Source of the DNA: Hyphomicrobiales bacterium
Lineage (GTDB): Bacteria > Pseudomonadota > Alphaproteobacteria > Rhizobiales > Beijerinckiaceae
Length of the DNA stretch: 64,000 nt
Assembly: GCA_930633495.1 (NCBI GenBank)
Contig: CAKNFJ010000002.1
Coordinates: 620,001 to 684,000 of the forward strand
Direction: 5' to 3'
Under the pieces are notes generated by a model that saw only the letters and a program-made list of their open reading frames with translations, made no database searches and was not told where the DNA came from. Of this stretch, positions 20,217-61,417 are shown piece after piece; position 1 is the first letter of the stretch; the number at the start of each line of letters is the position of its first letter. Made by a program: the position numbers and the translations under genes.

Positions 20217-20827
20217 GTCGATCTTCTCCATCCCCAGACCGTCGTGGCAGGATATGAAAGGCACAACATGCGAAACGAAAGTGGGGTGCTTCTGTTGCCA
20301 GGCGCAGTCCCGAAGCCCCGCCCGACGGTGCTACCCGTCAGGACTTAATGCCGGACCGGCACCGCTCACGCGGCGACGGCGTACCCAGCAGCATGGTTGT
20401 CGTTGGCAACTATGCGTAAGGCCCGATAACGGTGGAACCATGCCGAACAGCAAGAAGAACTCGTCAGCGCCCGTCGAACCTATTTCGCCCCCATCATCAA
20501 TGCACCGTGTGATGCACTCATGGTGGAGGCGATGGGTATCGCACCCATGTCCGAGCACCTATCATGTCCGACCGTCTACTGTCGTAGCCGTTGAAGCGGC
20601 ATCTCCAACATAAGGAAATTTGAGACCGTCATCAAGATCCTCTCTTATCCATCATGAGCCGGTCCACGGATTAGGACTGCGTTCCATTAGCCAGAACAAG
20701 GATTCGCCACTTTCTAGGCTATGTATCCTCGCCAATCCCCGCATTCCCCAACGTTTGCAATCCTTTGGGAACCCTTGGCTTGGAACTTCTGTTGCTCCCC
20801 GCGCTTTAAGGTCCGGAGGATTGTTTG
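20217..20827. other. gene-poor spacer of 611 bases
   Basis: No credible protein gene is seen; the open frames are short and have poor composition and no ribosome-binding sites. The region holds a degenerate tRNA-like sequence (20521-20606, minus) and two AAGGAT-type motifs at 20698-20703 (direct) and 20760-20765 (complement) upstream of the gene at 20828. A 9-base direct repeat (CATGTCCGA) lies within the tRNA-like part. Promoters for the divergent genes at 20216 and 20828 must lie here but I cannot place them. Confidence 0.5.
20521..20606 (-). other. degenerate tRNA-like element
   Basis: On the minus strand this 86-base stretch starts GGAGATG and ends CGCCTCCACCA, so the ends pair as an acceptor-like stem (five Watson-Crick pairs, one G-U, one A-C mismatch), followed by an A discriminator and CCA. 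Directly before it is a perfect 5-bp stem with a 7-base loop (ATGGG, TGCGATA, CCCAT) in T-arm position, and near the 5' end the loop-like AACGGCTA has the GG of a D-loop. I cannot fold a proper anticodon arm or assign an anticodon. It may be a tRNA relic or chance. Confidence 0.25.
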
Positions 20828-21685
20828 ATGAAGCGTTTTTCGCCCGCGGATCTGATCCGCACCGGCTGCGATGAATTTGACCTTCAGTGCTTGAATGTCG
20901 TCGTCGGAACGCGTGTCTCTGCCACCCAATCCAGCACCTATATCGCCTCCGCGCGGGAGACCCAGCGGGGAGGGCGCTCCCACGCGCGGGGGGAAGTCCG
21001 CGACGCCGACATCCTCTCGGTCATTCCAGCAAAGACACTCGACGAAGCGCCCCACATGCGTCGGCGCATCATCACGGAGACCCAAGCGATGCCGGCCTAC
21101 CTCTACGCGTTCCATCATTGGAGCGGCGGGAAGCGGATCACCCATGGCCATGTGCTGACACGCACGGCGGAGAACCTTCATCAGTTCCTCGGAGCCTGGC
21201 CTGCTGCGAACGATCACAGCCGCGCTGTGGTCGAGACGATGGCCACCTACGTCTCCAACCCGGCCGACGCCGTGGCTGGGGTTCTGGAACGGGCTCGCGA
21301 AGCTGGCCGAACCACGCTTCCGGCCCAGTTCGAGGAGATGTCGATCGAGCTGCGCAACGCGGCGGAGATGCTCATACTCGGCAGCTGCGACCCATCCGGT
21401 GACTACAGCGATAGCTACCACGCCCTGAAGTTCATCCTCGGCAACGACGATATCGTTCCGTCAGCCTCGCTCGAACCGCATGCGGGCGAGATGCGCTACA
21501 TCCTTGCGGATCTGTCTCCCGAGAACCGGCTGCGCATTCGTGACGCTATCACCGATACGATCGACACGGTGATCGCGCAGTCCGAGCCCCTAGCGCCAGG
21601 AGCTTCCGCAGAGGCGGTTATCACCCGTGAGGTGTTCCTCGCCTACGCCAAGCGGGCCGCCGGCGAGGAACCAAAGTCTGCCTAG
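20828..21685 (+). CDS. unknown protein
   Basis: A 285-residue protein. ATG 20828 has a good ribosome-binding site, GGAGGA, about 6 bases upstream. It begins MKRFSPADLIRTGCDEFDLQC and contains HHWSGGKRITHGHVLTRTAENLHQFLGAW, followed by a helical segment with ISEQ-poor, Glu/Arg-rich composition. No domain is recognised and there is no signal peptide. Its stop overlaps by 4 bases the stop of the Nudix gene on the other strand, so the two transcripts converge. Confidence 0.72.
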   Translation: MKRFSPADLIRTGCDEFDLQCLNVVVGTRVSATQSSTYIASARETQRGGRSHARGEVRDADILSVIPAKTLDEAPHMRRRIITETQAMPAYLYAFHHWSGGKRITHGHVLTRTAENLHQFLGAWPAANDHSRAVVETMATYVSNPADAVAGVLERAREAGRTTLPAQFEEMSIELRNAAEMLILGSCDPSGDYSDSYHALKFILGNDDIVPSASLEPHAGEMRYILADLSPENRLRIRDAITDTIDTVIAQSEPLAPGASAEAVITREVFLAYAKRAAGEEPKSA

Positions 21686-22647
21686 AGCCGGAGCATCTCG
21701 CGAACGGCGAAGCCGTGGTCGAAAGCCATGTTCGACGGCACAATCTCGCGCTTCGGCAGCCAAAGAACGGACCGGGCATCGGATCCCGCTTTCGCCGGCG
21801 GTCGCGGCCCCTTTAGCCGGTAGTGGTAGACCTGCGAGACAAAGCGGCCGCGAGGATCACGATCTGGCTCGTCGAAGACCGCGTTGCCGACGAGAAACTC
21901 GACCATCATCTCCGGGGTCATGGACGCCTCCTCGCCGGCCTCCCGGAGCGATGTCCGCCTGAGGCGCTCGCGGGGATCCTGGAACCCCCCAGGCAAGGCG
22001 GGATAGCCCTCGAACGGAAAGCGATCTCGGATGATGCAGAGCACGTCGTCTTCGTGCTCGATGAGTGCATCGGCGGTGGTGAAGCTCGGCTCGTAGGGCG
22101 CATTCGCCCACTCAGCACGATAGCGCGCCGCGGCCTGGTGCTCACCTAGCAGGTACCTATAGGGATCTGACCTACGCCAATCATCCAGGAAGGGAACGAG
22201 GAGCGGAGCTGGGGAGAGGTCGCCGAAGAGGTCGGCGGTCGACCCGATGCTCTCCACGCGGCGCACCTCATCGAAGACGAAGGCCGGCAAACCCCTCGCC
22301 TCGTTCATCGCAGCCTCGCTCGACCAAACGGCACGCGCCTCGCCCGCTTTGACAGCGGCAGCTTCAAGCGCCTCTTCCACAGTCCGGAGCCGGGCTTCAT
22401 CAAGGTACGGCTCGTCGTCGATTGCGTGGATCGCAACGATCCCGGCTGCGACCTCCTGGGGGAAGAGAAGCGTGAGCATCTCCTTCTGAACGTCGACAGT
22501 GAAAGGCTGCAGGTGAGCGGAGATCGGCCGGTCCGCTCCATTCAACAGGATGACTGTTCGATCGCTGCCGGCGATCACATCCGCAAGATGCGCGGCAGCA
22601 ATCGGGTTCCAGAAAGGAACGCGCTCCGCGATGACCGATACGACCAT
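21682..22647 (-). CDS. Nudix hydrolase with degenerate nucleotidyltransferase-like N-terminus
   Basis: A 321-residue protein, last gene of the NAD+ operon. The C-terminal half is a Nudix domain with an intact box, GGFQDPRERLRRTSLREAGEEA (the Gx5Ex7REUxEE pattern), in the layout of NadM-Nudix ADP-ribose pyrophosphatases. The N-terminal half resembles the NadM adenylyltransferase fold (VSVIAERVPFWNPIAAAHLADVI...TVILLNGADRPISAHLQPF), but the HxGH catalytic motif is missing. It probably hydrolyses a nucleoside diphosphate derivative such as ADP-ribose or NADH, and no longer adenylates. The stop of pncA lies at its start: the two coding regions share one base (22647). Confidence 0.8.
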   Translation of the reverse strand: MVVSVIAERVPFWNPIAAAHLADVIAGSDRTVILLNGADRPISAHLQPFTVDVQKEMLTLLFPQEVAAGIVAIHAIDDEPYLDEARLRTVEEALEAAAVKAGEARAVWSSEAAMNEARGLPAFVFDEVRRVESIGSTADLFGDLSPAPLLVPFLDDWRRSDPYRYLLGEHQAAARYRAEWANAPYEPSFTTADALIEHEDDVLCIIRDRFPFEGYPALPGGFQDPRERLRRTSLREAGEEASMTPEMMVEFLVGNAVFDEPDRDPRGRFVSQVYHYRLKGPRPPAKAGSDARSVLWLPKREIVPSNMAFDHGFAVREMLRL

Positions 22648-23363
22648 CAGAGCACCCGATCGGTGATGATGGCGCCCTGGTTCTGCATGATCAGGAGCCC
22701 AATCTGGTGGAAGAGATCTTGCGGGTGCGCCGCACTGGCGGGCAGGCCGAGCTCCGTCGCCGTCGACAGCGGCAGGTCGTAGGTCGCGCAGGCCGGCTCG
22801 TGCACGATGATCTGGTCGACCTTCCCGATGAAGCCGCGGGTACGCGCCGACAGGAGGCTCACGGTGGCGGTCAGAACGCAGATGTCGGTGCAGATCCCGA
22901 CCAGCACCAGCGTATCAACGCCAGAACTCTTCGCCCAGTCGAACACGATGTTGCTGCCGTCGGGCCTGATGCCGCCGATGACCCCATTGATGCACTCCTT
23001 GGGCATAACCAGCGTTTCTGGGTCGTTTTCGAGCCATTCGAGACGGCTGACGAGCATGTCGTCGCCCGTACCGACCAGGCAGTGAGGCGGGTACGGTTTC
23101 TCGTCCTGCTCAGCCGTGTGGCTGTCCCGAAAGACCAGCTTGGGACCGATCCTGCGGGCGAGGAGGTCGGTCTCCTCGATCATCCGCTCGATCTGCGGGT
23201 TCGGAACCGCCGGCGCCAGCGGACCTCGACCGGGCGTGCAGAAACCATGCACCTCGTCGACGACGATGAGACCGATCTTGCCGCGGCTCAGATCCAGAGC
23301 CGACATGACCAGAGGCGCGGTGCCCTCGATCGCGGTCATCATCGGGTTCGCAATCGCGTTCAT
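22647..23363 (-). CDS. pncA: nicotinamidase (isochorismatase fold)
   Basis: A 238-residue enzyme converting nicotinamide to nicotinate and ammonia. Catalytic Asp in VVDEVHGFCTPGRG, metal-binding site FRDSH...YPPHCLVGT, the Lys in LVMPKECINGV, and the nucleophile in GICTDICVLTATV. The start ATG 23363 has GAGGAG about 7 bases upstream; starts 6 bases and more upstream are too close to or before that site. Fourth gene of the NAD+ operon, supplying nicotinate to PncB. Confidence 0.9.
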   Translation of the reverse strand: MNAIANPMMTAIEGTAPLVMSALDLSRGKIGLIVVDEVHGFCTPGRGPLAPAVPNPQIERMIEETDLLARRIGPKLVFRDSHTAEQDEKPYPPHCLVGTGDDMLVSRLEWLENDPETLVMPKECINGVIGGIRPDGSNIVFDWAKSSGVDTLVLVGICTDICVLTATVSLLSARTRGFIGKVDQIIVHEPACATYDLPLSTATELGLPASAAHPQDLFHQIGLLIMQNQGAIITDRVL

Positions 23364-23376
23364 AGCCATCTCCTCA

Positions 23377-24174
23377 TCAACGATCGCCGCGGCGCGAGCG
23401 CGCGTAGTCGCGCTTCTCATCGCGGCTCGAAAGCGGACGCCACTTGCCGTCGTCCTTCAGTTCCAACACCTCGCCGTCGCGGCCCAGGCCATCGGCCTTG
23501 AAGCGCGTCCCCACCGGCAGCTTGGTGTCGGGAGGCGTTGCGCCGCGCAAAGCCTGCCGGAGGTGCGGTGGATAGTTCCAGTCTATGAAGCTGTGCAGCC
23601 TCTCGGGAACATAGCGCCGCCACTCGTCATCGCGCCGCTCGATGAGCGCTCTGATTTCCCGCCCGAGAGGCAGGCCGGATTTATCGCGGTCGACAATGTG
23701 GATGCGCTTCCCGCTGTCGACGTCCTCGTAGATCGTCGCCAGCGCCGAGTCGAACATCCTGCTGCTGTTGCCGTCAGAGAGACGCGCGAAAGCGGGCTCG
23801 TACCATTTGGCGTCGATCCGGCTGCCGGAGAAATAGTCCGTTGGAGCAGGCAGGCCGAGGCCGCGAATCTTCCCGAGGACATAGGCGCACCAGTCGTCGT
23901 TATCGACAGAGGCATCGATGTCATCCAGCGGGATGAAGCGGAATCCAGCGGTGTTCTCCGGCGGCCCTCCGAAGATGGCCTCGATCATCGACATCCGCTC
24001 TTCGAAGCTGAAGGGATGGCCTTCCTGACCCGCCTTCTTGACGCTACCGATGCCGACCAGGCACCGCTTCGCCGTTGCACGCATCTGCAGAAGCAGCCGC
24101 AGATGCCCATAATGGAGGACCTGGCTGTCCACGACTGCCAGGCAGACCCGATCATCGTTGCTGATCTGTGCCAT
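23377..24174 (-). CDS. nadM: nicotinamide/nicotinate-mononucleotide adenylyltransferase-like
   Basis: A 265-residue protein of the HxGH nucleotidyltransferase superfamily: VVDSQVLHYGHLRLL (HYGH), VGIGSVKK, GHPFSFEERMSMIEAIFG, a phosphate-binding YFSGSRI. This matches bacterial NadM-type NMN adenylyltransferase, which makes (nicotinate) adenine dinucleotide from the mononucleotide and ATP. The C-terminal 90 residues are an extra basic tail (WRPLSSRDEKRDYARSRRGDR). ATG 24174 has AGGG 8 bases upstream; a GTG at 24180 would overlap the pncB stop. Gene symbol is by family, not proven. Confidence 0.82.
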   Translation of the reverse strand: MAQISNDDRVCLAVVDSQVLHYGHLRLLLQMRATAKRCLVGIGSVKKAGQEGHPFSFEERMSMIEAIFGGPPENTAGFRFIPLDDIDASVDNDDWCAYVLGKIRGLGLPAPTDYFSGSRIDAKWYEPAFARLSDGNSSRMFDSALATIYEDVDSGKRIHIVDRDKSGLPLGREIRALIERRDDEWRRYVPERLHSFIDWNYPPHLRQALRGATPPDTKLPVGTRFKADGLGRDGEVLELKDDGKWRPLSSRDEKRDYARSRRGDR

Positions 24175-24176
24175 CG

Positions 24177-25493
24177 TCACACCCTGACGGCGGATTCCGC
24201 CATCCCCTTCGTCCCGAAGATCACCTTGTAACGCTCGACCTCACCGGCTGGCCCCGTCGCCTTCGCGAGGTTGTCGGAGAGCTTCACCGCCGGCCGCCCG
24301 GCCGCCTCTACGACTTTGCAGACCAGGGAGATCGGGTTCAGGCCGTCACCTCCCGCCGGCGCGCAGCCGCGGAAGTCGTTGGTCAGGTTGGTGCCCCAGC
24401 CGTAACTGACGCGCACGCGCCCCGAGAAGTGGCGGAAGCTTTCCTCGATCGAGTCGATATCCATGCCGTCAGACAGGATGAGCAGCTTTTCACGAGGATC
24501 TTCCCCACGCTCTCTCCACCAACGGATGAACTCGTCGCCGCCCTCGATCGGCGGCTTGGAGTCCGGCCTGGCACCCGTCCACTTCGCCACCCAGTCCGGC
24601 GCGTCCCGGAGGAAGGCTGTCGTGCCGTAGGCATCGGGCAGCAGCACTAGAAGATTGCCGGAATAGATCTTCGCCCAGTCGGCGAGGACTTGGTAGCGCG
24701 ACTGGCGCACCCCTTCGTCGTCCTCGCCAGCCATGGCCGCGTAGACCATCGCCAGCTCGTGGGCATTGGTGCCGATCGCCTCGGTCCCGGCCTGCATCGC
24801 GATATGGACATTGCTGGTGCCGACGAATGAAGATCCGAGACCTTCGGCCAGCGCCTCGCAGCACCAGCGCTGCCAGAGATACCCGTGACGGCGCCGGGTT
24901 CCGAAATCACCGACCTTCAGCAAGCCCTCGTTCTTGAGAGCCTTCAGGCGCTCTACCTTGTCCCAGAGGCGGGACTTCGCGCGGGCATAGAGAACATCGA
25001 GCTCGAAGCGTCCCATCCCCTTCATCGCGTGACGGGCGCGCAGCTCGTTGATGATGGAGAGCGCGGGGATCTCCCACATCGTCGTGTGTACCCAGCGGCC
25101 GGCGAAACGCAACTCGAACTGCCCGTCGCGGTGCTCCAGCTGGTACTCCGGAAGCTGGAAGTCGGTCAGCCACTCCAGGAAGTCTGGAGCGAAGATCTGC
25201 TTCACACCGTAGAAGGTGTTGCCGGCGAGATAGATCAGCTCGCCCTTCGTGAAGCGCAGCGTGCGCGCATGATCGAGCTGCGCGCGCAGCTCCGCCTCGT
25301 CGATGTCGTCGGCCAGACGCACGCTCTTCGAGCGGTTGATCAGCCCGAAGGTGACAGGCACGTCGCGATGCTGTCGCCAGATCATCTGAAGCATGAGCAG
25401 CTTGTAGAAGTCGGTGTCGAGCAGCGAGCGAACCACTGGGTCGAGCTTAAAGCTGTGGTTGTAGACCCGGGTCGCGAGATCGGTGAAAGCCAT
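24177..25493 (-). CDS. pncB: nicotinate phosphoribosyltransferase
   Basis: A 438-residue enzyme joining nicotinate and PRPP to give nicotinate mononucleotide. Signatures: [13 protein letters not shown] at the N-terminus, [14 protein letters not shown], the catalytic [19 protein letters not shown] region with its histidine, [13 protein letters not shown], and [10 protein letters not shown]. Length fits the PncB family. ATG 25493 has AGGA 5 bases upstream. Separated by 7 bases from nadE and overlapping or abutting the NMN adenylyltransferase start, so clearly one operon. Confidence 0.93.
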
Positions 25494-25500
25494 TTCGTCC

Positions 25501-27168
25501 TCACATCTCGAACGCGTTGACGATCGGAAGCCGGCGGTCGCGTCCGAACGCTCTTGGCCCGACTTTCGGACCTGGCGCCGACTGGCGACGTTTGTGCTCG
25601 CTCTGTCGGAGCAGCGCACCGACGAACCGAGTGTGATCGTTTGTTAGGAACCGCGGATCGCCGTCCGCCCCTATTGCGGTCCTCGCCCGCGCAAGCGCCG
25701 AGACCGAATCCATGTCTTCGTCGACAAAGCCTCGAAGCAGCTCGTCCAGGATCGCATAGGGACCGAGCTTCGCCTCGTCCGTCTGACCAAGTGCCAAATT
25801 CGCACTCGGCGCCTTCGCGATGATTGCCGGGGGGATTGGCGCATCGGGTCCGAGCACGCCTTCCGGACGAAACTCATTTCGCATGCGCGACAGGCTCCAC
25901 ACGTCCGTTTTGTAGATATCCTTGATAGGGTTGAAGCCGCCTGCCATGTCGCCGTACAGCGTCGCGTAGCCGACTGATCCCTCCGATTTGTTCCCTGTGG
26001 AGAGGAGCATGTGGCCATGCTCATTCGAATGAGCCATGAGTGCGATCATCCGCACCCGGGCTTGAATGTTCTCCTCGGTGACGTTCGGCACGCGCCCGGC
26101 AATCCCGAGCATCCTGCAGATTGCCTCCACCGGCTCGCCGATCGGGACCGTGGCAAGTTCGATCCCGAGCCGTGCGCAGACCTCGACCGCGTCGGCGATG
26201 TCGCCCTTCTCGGTGATCGTTGATGGCAGCGTGACAGCCTTCACCCGATCGGCGCCGAGCGCATCCACCGCCATGGTTCCAACCAACGCGGAGTCGATCC
26301 CACCTGACATCCCGAGAACGACGGTCATGAAGCGGCTTTTGTTGACATAGTCGCGCAGCCCCAAAACGCAGGCGAGGTAATCGGCGACCTCGTCCTCGGG
26401 GTAGGGTTCCTGGTGAGGGAATTCGTCGCCGAACGGCACCGAGATCGTCTGGATGGATTCCTTGAAGGCAGGCAGCTGCGCGCGAACCAGCCCCTTCTCG
26501 TCGAGCACGAAGCTCGCGCCGTCGAAGACGAGCTCGTCCTGGCCGCCGACCGTGTTCAGGTAGACGAGCGGCAGGCCTGTTTCGCGAACCCTGGCCTTGG
26601 CATGGGCCATCCGCTGATCGCGGTGCTTGCCGCGGGTGTAAGGACTGCCGTTGATGAAGATCAGGACGTCGGCCAGTTCGCCAGCGAGATCCTGGGCCAC
26701 CGACGGGTGCCACATTTCTTCGCAGATCCCGATTCCAATGCGGACGCCGCGGAATTTGATCGGAGGGCGGAAATCGCCGCAGGCGAAGTTCCTGACTTCG
26801 TCGAAGACCCCGTCGTTGGGACGGTCACGCTTGCGAGCGACCTTCTTGGAACCGTCGGGGCTGATGAAATAGGCGGCGTTATAGGGGAGTGCCGGGCCTT
26901 CTTCAGGCGCTCCCATCACCACGGCCGGCCCGCCGACGGCAACGACGGCCTCGGTCACCCGGGCGAGCTCGCGTTCGGTCGCGGCGAGGAAGGCCGGCCG
27001 AAGAACGAGGTCCTCGATCGGGTAGCCGGTCAGGAAGCACTCGGGGAAGACGATCACGTCGGCGTCCGGGTGCTGCCTCAGCACCTCGATTGCGCGGTCC
27101 GCATTGTTGCGAAGATCACCGACGCGCGGGTTTAGCTGCGCCAGCACAAGATTCAACTTGCGTGTCAT
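25501..27168 (-). CDS. nadE: glutamine-dependent NAD+ synthase
   Basis: A 555-residue two-domain enzyme. N-terminal nitrilase-type glutaminase with the Glu in [11 protein letters not shown], the Lys in [13 protein letters not shown] and the Cys in GICEEMW. C-terminal synthetase with the PP-loop [13 protein letters not shown] and [18 protein letters not shown]. It amidates nicotinate adenine dinucleotide to NAD+. Start ATG 27168 has AGGA 7 bases upstream. First gene of the operon, behind the promoter at 27254-27282. Confidence 0.94.
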
Positions 27169-27253
27169 TCTCGATCCTCGTCTCACCCGCAACGCGGATG
27201 GATTGGAGCGGCGTCGGTGTGACCCTCATGGATCCACCTCAGCGGCTTGAGTT

Positions 27254-27282
27254 ATTGAACGCCTAGCGCTCGACACTGTCAA
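27254..27282 (-). promoter_or_regulatory. sigma70-like promoter of the NAD+ operon
   Basis: On the minus strand TTGACA (27282-27277) is followed after exactly 17 bases by TTCAAT (27259-27254). A transcript would start near 27246 and leave a leader of about 78 bases before nadE. This is the cleanest -35/-10 pair I see in the window. Confidence 0.55.
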
Positions 27283-27304
27283 CAGGGCCGGCGATCTGGC
27301 CCCT

Positions 27305-27340
27305 AAAACGAAAGAGCCGGCCATCGGATGATGGCCGGCT
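27305..27340 (-). terminator. hairpin with T-rich tail upstream of the NAD+ operon
   Basis: A perfect 10-bp stem (27315-27324 with 27331-27340; arms AGCCGGCCAT/ATGGCCGGCT) with a 6-base loop. Read on the minus strand it is followed by CTTTCGTTTT, so it would stop transcripts running leftward towards nadE. No gene ends just upstream of it, so it may insulate the operon or end a small RNA. The same core (CCGGCCATCGG...ATGGCCGG) recurs at 29726. Confidence 0.5.
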
Positions 27341-27703
27341 AAGTCGAGGGGAACGAAACGGGCAAGGGGAGGAACGCCCGCCTCAAGGAATACAATTGCG
27401 ATTCCTTTGGAGCCCCACAATCCTTGCCCCTGCAGATTCGGTGGATAGCGCAGTTGGCCGTGCCGGCTCGTCTGGGAGCGCTCCGACCTCGCGGCCTCCG
27501 ACCAGCCTTTCCTCGGTTCATGGCTTGAGGTCGCTTGACCGGAGTTTCATCTAATCCCTCAGACTCCGTTAATCATCTGCCGTCGAAAGCCATCCTCATC
27601 CACGGGCACGCTCAGGGAAAGCCCGAAGCCGCGATTGCCAGAGAGCGTGCGATTCTCGAATAGCCGATTGAAGAACTGTTTTTGCGTTCCTTGGAGTTAT
27701 GTC
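27341..27703. other. divergent spacer between NAD+ operon and MHYT gene
   Basis: No gene is supported here. It holds one AAGGAT motif (27420-27425, complement), AAGGAA-like variants around 27395 and 27403, and, near 27690, the GGAG ribosome-binding site of the MHYT-GGDEF-EAL gene. A 60-codon minus-strand frame (27339-27521) has no ribosome-binding site. A small RNA ending at the hairpin 27305-27340 is possible. Confidence 0.4.
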
Positions 27704-60136: not shown

Positions 60137-60181
60137 CCGCTGAGCTTGCCCAACCAAGGAATCGAACGTAGTTTCTTTCCC

Positions 60182-61417
60182 ATGCTGCGCCAGCAGGCCT
60201 ATCGCTTCCGAATTTATCCAAGCCCGGATCAGGCGGGCCTTTTCCGACGGACGGTCGGATGCTGCCGGCTGGTCTACAACCTGTGCCTGGACCAAAAGAC
60301 CCTGGAGTCTCATCGCAGCGCGCCGCGGCGGTTGAGTTACGCGGATCAGTGCGATGGACTGACCGAGCTGAAGCGAGAGGCAGAGTGGCTGAGGGATGTA
60401 CCTCATCACCCGTTGCAGCAGGCGATCCGGGATCTCCATCGCGCCTTCACGAACTTCTTTGAGGGACGGGCCCGCTACCCAACCTTCAGGCGCAAAGGCG
60501 AAAACGAGTCCTTCCGCTATCCCGATCCGAAACAAATCAAGCTCGAAGAGCGGCGTATCTTCCTGCCAAAGGCCGGCTGGGTGGAACTCGTTCAGCACCG
60601 CCGGGTCGAGGGAGCGATCAAGAACGTCACGGTTTCGATGGTCGCCGGCGACTGGTTCGTCTCGATCCAGGTGGAGCAGGAGATACAAGAGGCCGCCCCA
60701 AACCTTGGCCCGGCCATAGGCATCGATCTGGGGGTGGATCAGCCGATCACGCTCTCGAACGGGACTGTCTTCCAGCTGCCGCGCGTCTCGCCGCACGAGC
60801 GCCGGCGGCTCGCAGCAGCTCAGAAGAGTGTCGCCCGCCGGCGGAAGGGCTCCAGGAACCGCGCCAAGGCGCTGAGGCGCGTCGCGCGCCTGCAGGCGAG
60901 GTTCGCCAGACGAAGGAGGGATGCAGCTCACAAGGCCACGACGATCATCGCCAAGAACCACGGCACGATCGTCATGGAGGACCTGAAGGTTAGGAACATG
61001 ACGGCTTCCGCGCGAGGCACGGCCGATGGTCCTGGATCGAAGGTCCGTCAGAAGGCCGGGCTGAACCGGTCCCTCCTCGATATCGCGCCGGGCATGATCC
61101 GCTCGATGCTCGCCTACAAGGCGCCCTGGTACGGATCGGCGCTGATCGCCGTCGATCCGGCCTACACATCGCAGGAGTGTTCTTCCTGCCGCACGGTCGA
61201 TGCGAAAAGCCGCATCAGCCGCTCGCAGTTCGTCTGCACGAATTGCGGTCTCATCGAGAATGCCGACGTCAACGCAGCCAAGTCCATCCTGGCGCGCGGG
61301 CTCGGCTCAACCGGAGGACATCCGGGGATGGCCTGTGAATCGAGCCGCGCTGGCGGCCGGAAACAGGAAATCATGCCTGCGAAGGCGAGAAGCTCGGTCC
61401 TTCAGGGCCGAGATTAG
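60182..61417 (+). CDS. tnpB: TnpB RNA-guided nuclease of IS200/IS605 family
   Basis: A 411-residue protein from ATG 60182 (MLRQQAYRFRIYPS), the typical TnpB start. It has a split RuvC with all three acidic residues: Asp182 in AIGIDLGVDQP, Glu266 in IVMEDLKVRNM and Asp362 in ENADVNAAKSI. The zinc finger is CSSC (333/336) and CTNC (352/355). Length is typical. Active TnpB uses an omega RNA from its 3' region to cut the donor site and keep the element. Not truncated. Confidence 0.93.
   Translation: MLRQQAYRFRIYPSPDQAGLFRRTVGCCRLVYNLCLDQKTLESHRSAPRRLSYADQCDGLTELKREAEWLRDVPHHPLQQAIRDLHRAFTNFFEGRARYPTFRRKGENESFRYPDPKQIKLEERRIFLPKAGWVELVQHRRVEGAIKNVTVSMVAGDWFVSIQVEQEIQEAAPNLGPAIGIDLGVDQPITLSNGTVFQLPRVSPHERRRLAAAQKSVARRRKGSRNRAKALRRVARLQARFARRRRDAAHKATTIIAKNHGTIVMEDLKVRNMTASARGTADGPGSKVRQKAGLNRSLLDIAPGMIRSMLAYKAPWYGSALIAVDPAYTSQECSSCRTVDAKSRISRSQFVCTNCGLIENADVNAAKSILARGLGSTGGHPGMACESSRAGGRKQEIMPAKARSSVLQGRD

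Follow-up and report, generated by a model that had tools for sequence, protein, structure and literature searches.

The window analysed here is a stretch of 64,000 nucleotides from a Bosea bacterium (positions 620001-684000 of contig C2, in a genome of 3 contigs and 5,944,473 bases). It carries a cassette of five genes that is a real and conserved operon and very likely encodes a route from nicotinamide to nicotinamide adenine dinucleotide (NAD+). Contig C2 (758,792 bp; C3 comprises 43,141 bases) is a plasmid-like replicon related to two ~700-kb Bosea plasmids, the closest named records being the circular plasmids pANAM02 (692,187 bp) and, from Bosea sp. RAC05, pBSY19_1 (708,738 bp). NAD+ depletion is a general bacterial immune strategy, and we give an even chance to the proposal that the cassette is an NAD+ regeneration module of this very large plasmid, its benefit being to keep NAD+ up under consumption. 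We put this forward because of the synteny of the five genes, their dN/dS ratios (nonsynonymous to synonymous substitution rates), the restriction of the NadM-like gene to 3 of 67 Bosea genomes, its counterparts in phages, a cassette-specific leader related to those of phage nadE and pncA, and the finding of no chromosomal nicotinamidase.

The five open reading frames lie on the minus strand (21682-27168), separated by 7, 2 and 13 bases and, at the last junction, overlapping by 1 base (Table 1). Their order is identical on C2, pANAM02 and pBSY19_1, with protein identities of 35-98%. Relative to pANAM02, identity reaches 84.5% for NadE, 95.7% for PncB, 95.1% for NadM, 97.8% for PncA and 92.2% for the Nudix protein; relative to pBSY19_1, the corresponding values are 66.6, 57.6, 49.2, 69.0 and 35.1%. 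Against pANAM02, NadE thus falls well below its four cassette partners (92-98%), possibly as a result of recombination. The dN/dS ratios amount to 0.032-0.116 against pANAM02 and to 0.22-0.38 against pBSY19_1, the latter computed with synonymous sites near saturation, and the cassette is under purifying selection. The original prediction, made from the sequence of the window, had proposed a five-gene operon on an accessory replicon. The former is confirmed by near-contiguous frames on one strand whose order is kept on two named plasmids, and the latter is supported by the plasmid-like nature of C2 and its plasmid relatives. The synteny search that it had suggested also finds the same functions grouped in phages.

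Table 1. Features of the NAD+ cassette and of its upstream region (NMN and NaMN, nicotinamide and nicotinate mononucleotide; positions in the window)
Feature	Position	Strand	Start codon chosen	Evidence
nadE, glutamine-dependent NAD+ synthetase, 555 aa	25501..27168	-	27168	NF010588, 591.9 bits (cut-off 479)
pncB, nicotinate phosphoribosyltransferase, 438 aa	24177..25493	-	25493	NF003704, 477.8 bits (cut-off 379)
NadM-like NMN/NaMN adenylyltransferase, HYGH motif, 265 aa	23377..24174	-	24174	CTP_transf_like, 29.1 bits (cut-off 21); fold match
pncA, nicotinamidase-like isochorismatase-family hydrolase, 238 aa	22647..23363	-	23363	Pfam isochorismatase, 48.1 bits (cut-off 27)
Nudix protein, probable ADP-ribose pyrophosphatase, decayed adenylyltransferase N-domain, 321 aa	21682..22647	-	22647	NUDIX, 39.4 bits (cut-off 21.1)
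Structured nadE 5' leader, two hairpins	27169..27247	-		covariation in 3 plasmids
Promoter-like TTGACA-17-TTCAAT	27254..27282	-		perfect -35, weak -10

By family, fold and residues, the full Preiss-Handler set (nicotinamidase, nicotinate phosphoribosyltransferase, adenylyltransferase and NAD synthetase) is present. The structure model of the NadM-like protein (predicted local distance difference test score, pLDDT, of 84.5) returns as its top 12 PDB matches one archaeal (Methanobacterium) NMN adenylyltransferase (NMNAT) and its mutants; the HxGH motif (HYGH) and the fold point to an archaeal-type NMNAT, an assignment that is weak by sequence. In PncA, the Asp/Lys/Cys and Asp/His/His residues, which we take to be the catalytic triad and the metal site of nicotinamidase, respectively, are kept in all 12 aligned plasmid and phage proteins. 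The Nudix protein model (pLDDT 72) fits the bifunctional NMNAT/ADP-ribose pyrophosphatases 2r5w, 2qjt and 2qjo across both domains (template modelling scores 0.75-0.77), and the sequence scores 121.4 bits against the curated bifunctional NMNAT/Nudix model, missing its cut-off of 397. Its N-domain is devoid of the HxGH motif in all three plasmid copies, the Nudix core being retained; among the 11 proteins checked, the Nudix pattern failed in two. Judging from these models, the protein is a relative of the bifunctional NMNAT/Nudix enzymes with a decayed adenylyltransferase half.

The NadM-like gene occurs in 3 of 67 Bosea genomes, always on these replicons, and among 397 genomes of the order, with at most six candidates per genome scored, the only strong match is the window's own; ten weaker ones reach 34-46 bits, nine of them within frames of 338-372 residues. 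A single-peptide-pattern scan of genome contigs leads to one Micavibrio contig, in which the gene adjoins genes that look housekeeping-like by eye. Related sets are found on a 316-kb Salipiger plasmid (nadE-pncB-nadM-pncA) and on plasmid pAB510d of Azospirillum sp. B510, where genes for a bifunctional NMNAT/Nudix protein, nadE, pncB and PncA are consecutive, while in A. oryzae the matches to nadE, pncB and pncA are adjacent.

The host chromosome has its own pncB, whose product is 65% identical to the plasmid PncB, as well as an NAD synthetase gene (nadE) and nadD. The NAPRTase/NAMPT family PF04095, which we presume to cover Nampt as well, is found at two places in the genome, both of them PncB. 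Isochorismatase-family proteins are encoded at six places, five of them chromosomal, and none of these five displays the nicotinamidase metal motif Asp-x-His...His when read by eye; the plasmid therefore probably adds the nicotinamide entry step to the route of its host. A profile of the cassette nicotinamidases reports only a weak match on this chromosome. Among the 67 Bosea genomes, it finds some match in 63 and a strong one outside the cassettes in 43 (E ≤8.1e-35), besides one in two pieces in genome G004. Two of the cassette hosts, this genome (G000) and G015, presumably RAC05 as judged from agreeing coordinates, return no strong match outside the cassette, which would apparently make the plasmid the sole source of nicotinamidase in two of the three hosts. 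Thus, the assumption of the original prediction that chromosomes normally encode the set already stands for pncB, nadE and nadD and seems to fail for nicotinamidase, a situation close to the one that it had named as speaking against itself, namely a chromosomal window with the sole NAD+ salvage locus.

Upstream of nadE, a leader of ~80 bases folds into two hairpins in the three plasmids, the first one with a bulged purine and the second one over part of the ribosome-binding site, where two base pairs occlude the GG of GAGGA ahead of the start codon. Over the 25 pairs of the three plasmid leaders, 75 of 75 cells are paired and 4 pairs have changed on both sides, a result equalled by 2 of 500 shuffles, and slid versions are at most 52% paired. 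In the 67 Bosea genomes, the leader covariance model identifies nothing but the three cassettes. The folding energy of the three leaders is by itself not unusual (z -0.9 to -1.6). A small upstream frame was rejected as the cause of this conservation, as pBSY19_1 lacks the ATG of the 14-codon frame seen in C2 and pANAM02 (by eye). The structured leader probably controls nadE translation. Regarding transcription, the 'good promoter' of the original prediction retains its perfect -35 TTGACA, but the -10 TTCAAT is weak and the element does not pass a consensus scan, which returns 0 sites against 1.1 expected. Rfam analysis of the leader region of the window reports two small RNA (sRNA) matches below the gathering score (22.5 versus 41 and 14 versus 45 bits). 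Window positions 27300-27379 (minus strand) match the mmgR/suhB sRNA family weakly (22.5 bits, gathering 41) and end in a strong terminator-like hairpin.

The same functions are grouped in giant phages. A tblastn analysis with the NadM-like protein reports hits in 3 of 50,697 phage records, namely Sinorhizobium phage Phosso (469 kb), with all five functions within ~5.7 kb, and two records of Agrobacterium phage Atu_ph07 (490 kb), with four functions in the 24.6 kb read. A single-sequence NadM scan of viral contigs yielded 43 stretches, none a relative, and an alignment-based scan of IMG/VR yielded eight loci (L062-L069). Five of these eight, L063-L067 (contigs of 25, 296, 28, 417 and 465 kb), possess all five functions; L068 (359 kb) has four, being devoid of PncB, L069, a contig of 490,380 bp, gives the same matches as Atu_ph07, and L062, on a contig of 9.8 kb, encodes NadE and NadM, its PncA being doubtful. 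Bacillus phage G (497 kb; L117, 3564-10813) harbours a full nicotinamide-to-NAD+ gene set within ~7.3 kb, comprising a Nudix protein with an NrtR-type winged helix, an isochorismatase, an NAPRTase, an RNA 2'-phosphotransferase, an adenylyltransferase annotated as nicotinate-nucleotide-type and an NAD synthetase, its PncB being ~22% identical to that of the window. In an uncultured 735-kb phage, less than 0.8 kb separates PncB from NadE and a PncA-like frame follows at a distance of 4.9 kb, with no NadM or Nudix match, and an uncultured 485-kb phage has NadE only. Plasmid and phage cassettes employ partly non-orthologous enzymes for the same functions. In line with the mention of phage NAD+ pathways in the original prediction, all five functions occur together in Phosso, phage G and five of the eight IMG/VR loci.

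Plasmid and phage cassettes also seem to share a hairpin RNA ahead of their genes. The leader model, run on 31 sources (1,059,384 bases), recovers, besides the three cassettes, a single weak match in L067 (14.7 bits, E 0.91), which terminates exactly at the nadE start. With filters off on eight phage and Salipiger loci, it returns 24 matches up to E 10, of which 8 end at most 15 bases from a nadE or pncA start (L062, L063 twice, L064 twice, L065 and L012 twice) and include the four best of one such scan; the model includes the ribosome-binding site and ATG at its end and is thus biased to gene starts. Phosso, L066 and L068 gave no such match near these starts. In most of the 11 leaders that were folded freely, a first hairpin bears a single-base bulge on its 3' side and a second one lies at the ribosome-binding site. 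Two pncA leaders, L067 12190-12268 (z -4.6) and L066 11774-11853 (z -4.4), form very stable tandem hairpins; one nadE leader has a z of -2.6, and the other eight range from -0.4 to -1.6. A hairpin descriptor composed after inspection of the leaders (NNUC, loop of 3-12, GGNN, a purine bulge and an outer stem of at least 4) matches 8 of the 20 leaders of nadE or pncA, those of the three plasmids among them, none of the 25 starts of other cassette genes and 45 of 3152 start-like sites; with an outer stem of 3, the counts are 11/20, 0/25 and 89/3152. In six nadE leaders (5 distinct) selected for fitting the hairpin, 40 of 40 cells are paired and 5 of 8 pairs have changed on both sides, with 0 of 500 shuffles as good. 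Restricted to the three phage nadE leaders, the values are 24/24 cells, 4/8 pairs and 8/500 shuffles. Both sets of figures are inflated by this selection. These pair counts exclude a gappy MAFFT alignment of 7 phage leaders and two misplaced pncA rows. Changes on both sides at the same pairs are still hard to explain without a conserved hairpin. Rfam analysis returned no match for the L067 nadE leader up to E 1, and none at gathering in seven phage loci.

The trees do not support a descent of the plasmid cassette from the phage one. The PncB tree (24 proteins; one of the nine PncB loci, L108, had no usable frame and was left out) has a split, with support 0.984, between the copies of the three Bosea plasmids and of chromosomes on one side and those of phages, Azospirillum and Salipiger on the other. 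The NadE tree joins the two phage copies (0.999) outside the plasmid clade and places the plasmid NadE closer to Azospirillum and Salipiger than to them; several supports in the two trees are weak, and that of NadE comprises 7 proteins. It is plausible that the cassette arose from a bacterial operon whose bifunctional protein would have lost its adenylyltransferase part once the NadM-like enzyme had arrived.

From the enzyme families, we infer the following route. PncA would deamidate nicotinamide to nicotinate, PncB would convert it to NaMN, the NadM-like enzyme would yield nicotinate adenine dinucleotide, and NadE would amidate the latter to NAD+. The Nudix protein probably splits ADP-ribose, its presumed substrate, into AMP and ribose 5-phosphate, which would allow both halves of a cleaved NAD+ to be recycled, ribose 5-phosphate through the host phosphoribosyl pyrophosphate (PRPP) synthase. 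The NAD+ consumers countered in this way would be host NADase defences, NAD+-using enzymes of the element itself, or both. Such a use against NAD+ depletion is the leading, though unproven, reading of the operon. Several observations weigh against it. PADLOC models match none of the cassette proteins, and pAB510d carries its similar operon without a known conflict role. The NadM-like protein stays under the curated NCBIfam NMNAT cut-offs (32.0 versus 127 bits, 30.8 versus 181.2), no NCBIfam model matched PncA, the nicotinamidase model NF008623 has no match anywhere on C2, and the PDB sequence most similar to PncA belongs to a protein named isochorismatase, nicotinamidases ranking lower. Accordingly, the families of the original prediction hold for nadE and pncB, both above their cut-offs, and for the HYGH motif; they need qualification for the NadM-like protein and PncA, which fall outside the NCBIfam models, and for the Nudix protein, an HxGH-less bifunctional relative. 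Lastly, G028, presumably ANAM02, has a strong chromosomal nicotinamidase match.

This last match speaks equally against ordinary nutritional salvage, in which the plasmid would let its host use environmental or recycled nicotinamide and the operon would be metabolic, with no role in conflict. The similar Azospirillum plasmid operon makes salvage a serious rival, although we consider it rather unlikely. It would fit a chromosome apparently devoid of nicotinamidase, the row of genes on pAB510d (PncA 47% identical) and the adjacent genes of A. oryzae, and the position of the plasmid NadE nearer Azospirillum and Salipiger than the phage copies. However, if just the nicotinamidase were missing, three more genes with chromosomal counterparts would be superfluous, and giant lytic phages have the same functions. 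We regard as improbable a third explanation, by which the cassette feeds the NAD+ users of the replicon itself, namely NAD-dependent DNA ligase, RNA 2'-phosphotransferase and a RES-family NAD+ phosphorylase toxin. All three are annotated on pANAM02, RES is also found on C2, and an RNA 2'-phosphotransferase gene sits inside the phage G cassette; nevertheless, the RAC05 plasmid has no RES match, the ligase and the RNA 2'-phosphotransferase are known here from the pANAM02 annotation alone, and the hosts make NAD+ already. The RES gene of C2 (G000:C2:469374-469811), also present on pANAM02, was rejected as a constant partner of the cassette given its absence from the matches on the RAC05 plasmid.

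The pANAM02 gene table, which covers ~688 of 692 kb (all except 550001-552000 and 690001-692187; PLSDB tables are incomplete), lists the Dot/Icm-type transfer genes DotA, DotD, DotG, DotH, DotI and IcmT as well as RepC and pilus genes. No virion gene (capsid, terminase, portal, tail) is named in this table, which consists mostly of hypothetical proteins and belongs to a relative of C2; a phage-plasmid identity was not adopted, in view of its Dot/Icm, RepC and pilus genes and lack of a named virion gene. PLSDB classes pANAM02 as non-mobilizable, so we infer conjugation from gene names alone. The table also includes LigA, RNA 2'-phosphotransferase, RES, macro domain, RtcB, SerS and TrpS. A jumbo-phage-like self-sufficiency kit can be read from this ~700-kb plasmid, with gyrase, ribonucleotide reductase, thymidylate synthase, DHFR, nucleotide kinases, two ScpB genes, RNA repair, two tRNA ligases and Cas9. 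Elsewhere in the window are encoded a DotI/IcmL protein, SMC, ScpB, HipA, a DnaA-like protein, dCTP deaminase and TnpB, the latter being a TnpB/OrfB-type protein at 60146-61417. A plasmid-borne alphaproteobacterial transfer-messenger RNA (tmRNA) gene is located at 20280-20639 (minus strand; 209.6 bits versus a gathering score of 50); it is the third in the genome, the other two being chromosomal and close to each other.

Returning to regeneration under NAD+ consumption, the cassettes suggest that giant mobile elements may carry a kit to withstand NAD+ loss. We tentatively propose, as a possibility that we rate as less likely than not, a further type of NAD+ reconstitution on conjugation-capable plasmids and giant phages. 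It would be deamidating, would reuse both NADase products by means of the Nudix protein, and would be placed under a new class of cis-acting hairpin RNA (a riboswitch or a protein-bound operator, with tandem hairpins, a bulged purine and the second hairpin over the ribosome-binding site) common to plasmid and phage nadE and pncA despite partly non-orthologous enzymes. If full NAD+ kits under one kind of RNA control are carried by plasmids and phages alike, giant mobile elements would have counter-depletion as a common trait. The leader may be a new RNA that senses NAD+ metabolism. The strain would provide a clean test case, because nicotinamide recycling seems to hang on the plasmid alone.

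Among known systems, NARP1 and NARP2 reportedly originate from Osterman et al. 2024, and NARP2 is said to consist of Nampt and NMNAT. The cassette resembles both in belonging to mobile elements and would likewise rebuild NAD+ from NADase products. NARP1 uses Adps and Namat, whereas the cassette would first deamidate nicotinamide, to be re-amidated by NadE; no Namat- or Nampt-family transferase, the mark of NARP1/NARP2, was found in the genome, the PF04095 matches being both PncB. According to the passages available of two reports, phage NAD+ rebuilding against NADases is established for these other enzymes (PMC12774641, PMC11984713). From what is accessible of the jumbo-phage surveys, the most expanded NAD+ system is one of three genes (Iyer et al. 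2021, PMC7824862) and NadV is present in every NadM phage (Iyer et al. 2022, PMC9503650); the portion available on Xanthomonas phage X1 (2026) lists pncB, nadM, nadD, nadE and NAMPT, for which it suggests that they counter NAD+ depletion (PMC13384950), and that on Atu_ph07 names the NAPRTase of this phage (PMC6102473). In a literature search to which subscription papers were mostly inaccessible, we noticed no description of the plasmid cassette, of a five-function phage cassette or of such a leader. Extrachromosomal NAD genes on which the host depends are described, in the excerpts available, for pncA of Borrelia burgdorferi lp25 (PMC3303823), a single step, and for nadABC of Paracoccus aminophilus pAMI5 (PMC3925955), which belong to the de novo pathway and not to a full salvage route. 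The pAB510d operon shares with the cassette the same four activities and a Nudix domain (PncA 47%, NadE 47% and PncB 56% identical), but its adenylyltransferase and Nudix domains reside in one bifunctional protein, whereas the cassette combines a decayed form of that adenylyltransferase part with a separate NadM-like enzyme. Phosso and phage G resemble the cassette in having five functions, Atu_ph07 in having four in the stretch read. The NadM-like family is common to the cassette, Phosso and Atu_ph07, phage G possessing NadD and an NrtR-type Nudix protein. The NadE of Phosso and phage G is of the short ammonia type, in contrast with the glutamine-dependent plasmid enzyme, and the phage Nudix proteins are devoid of the adenylyltransferase-like N-domain that characterizes those of the plasmids.

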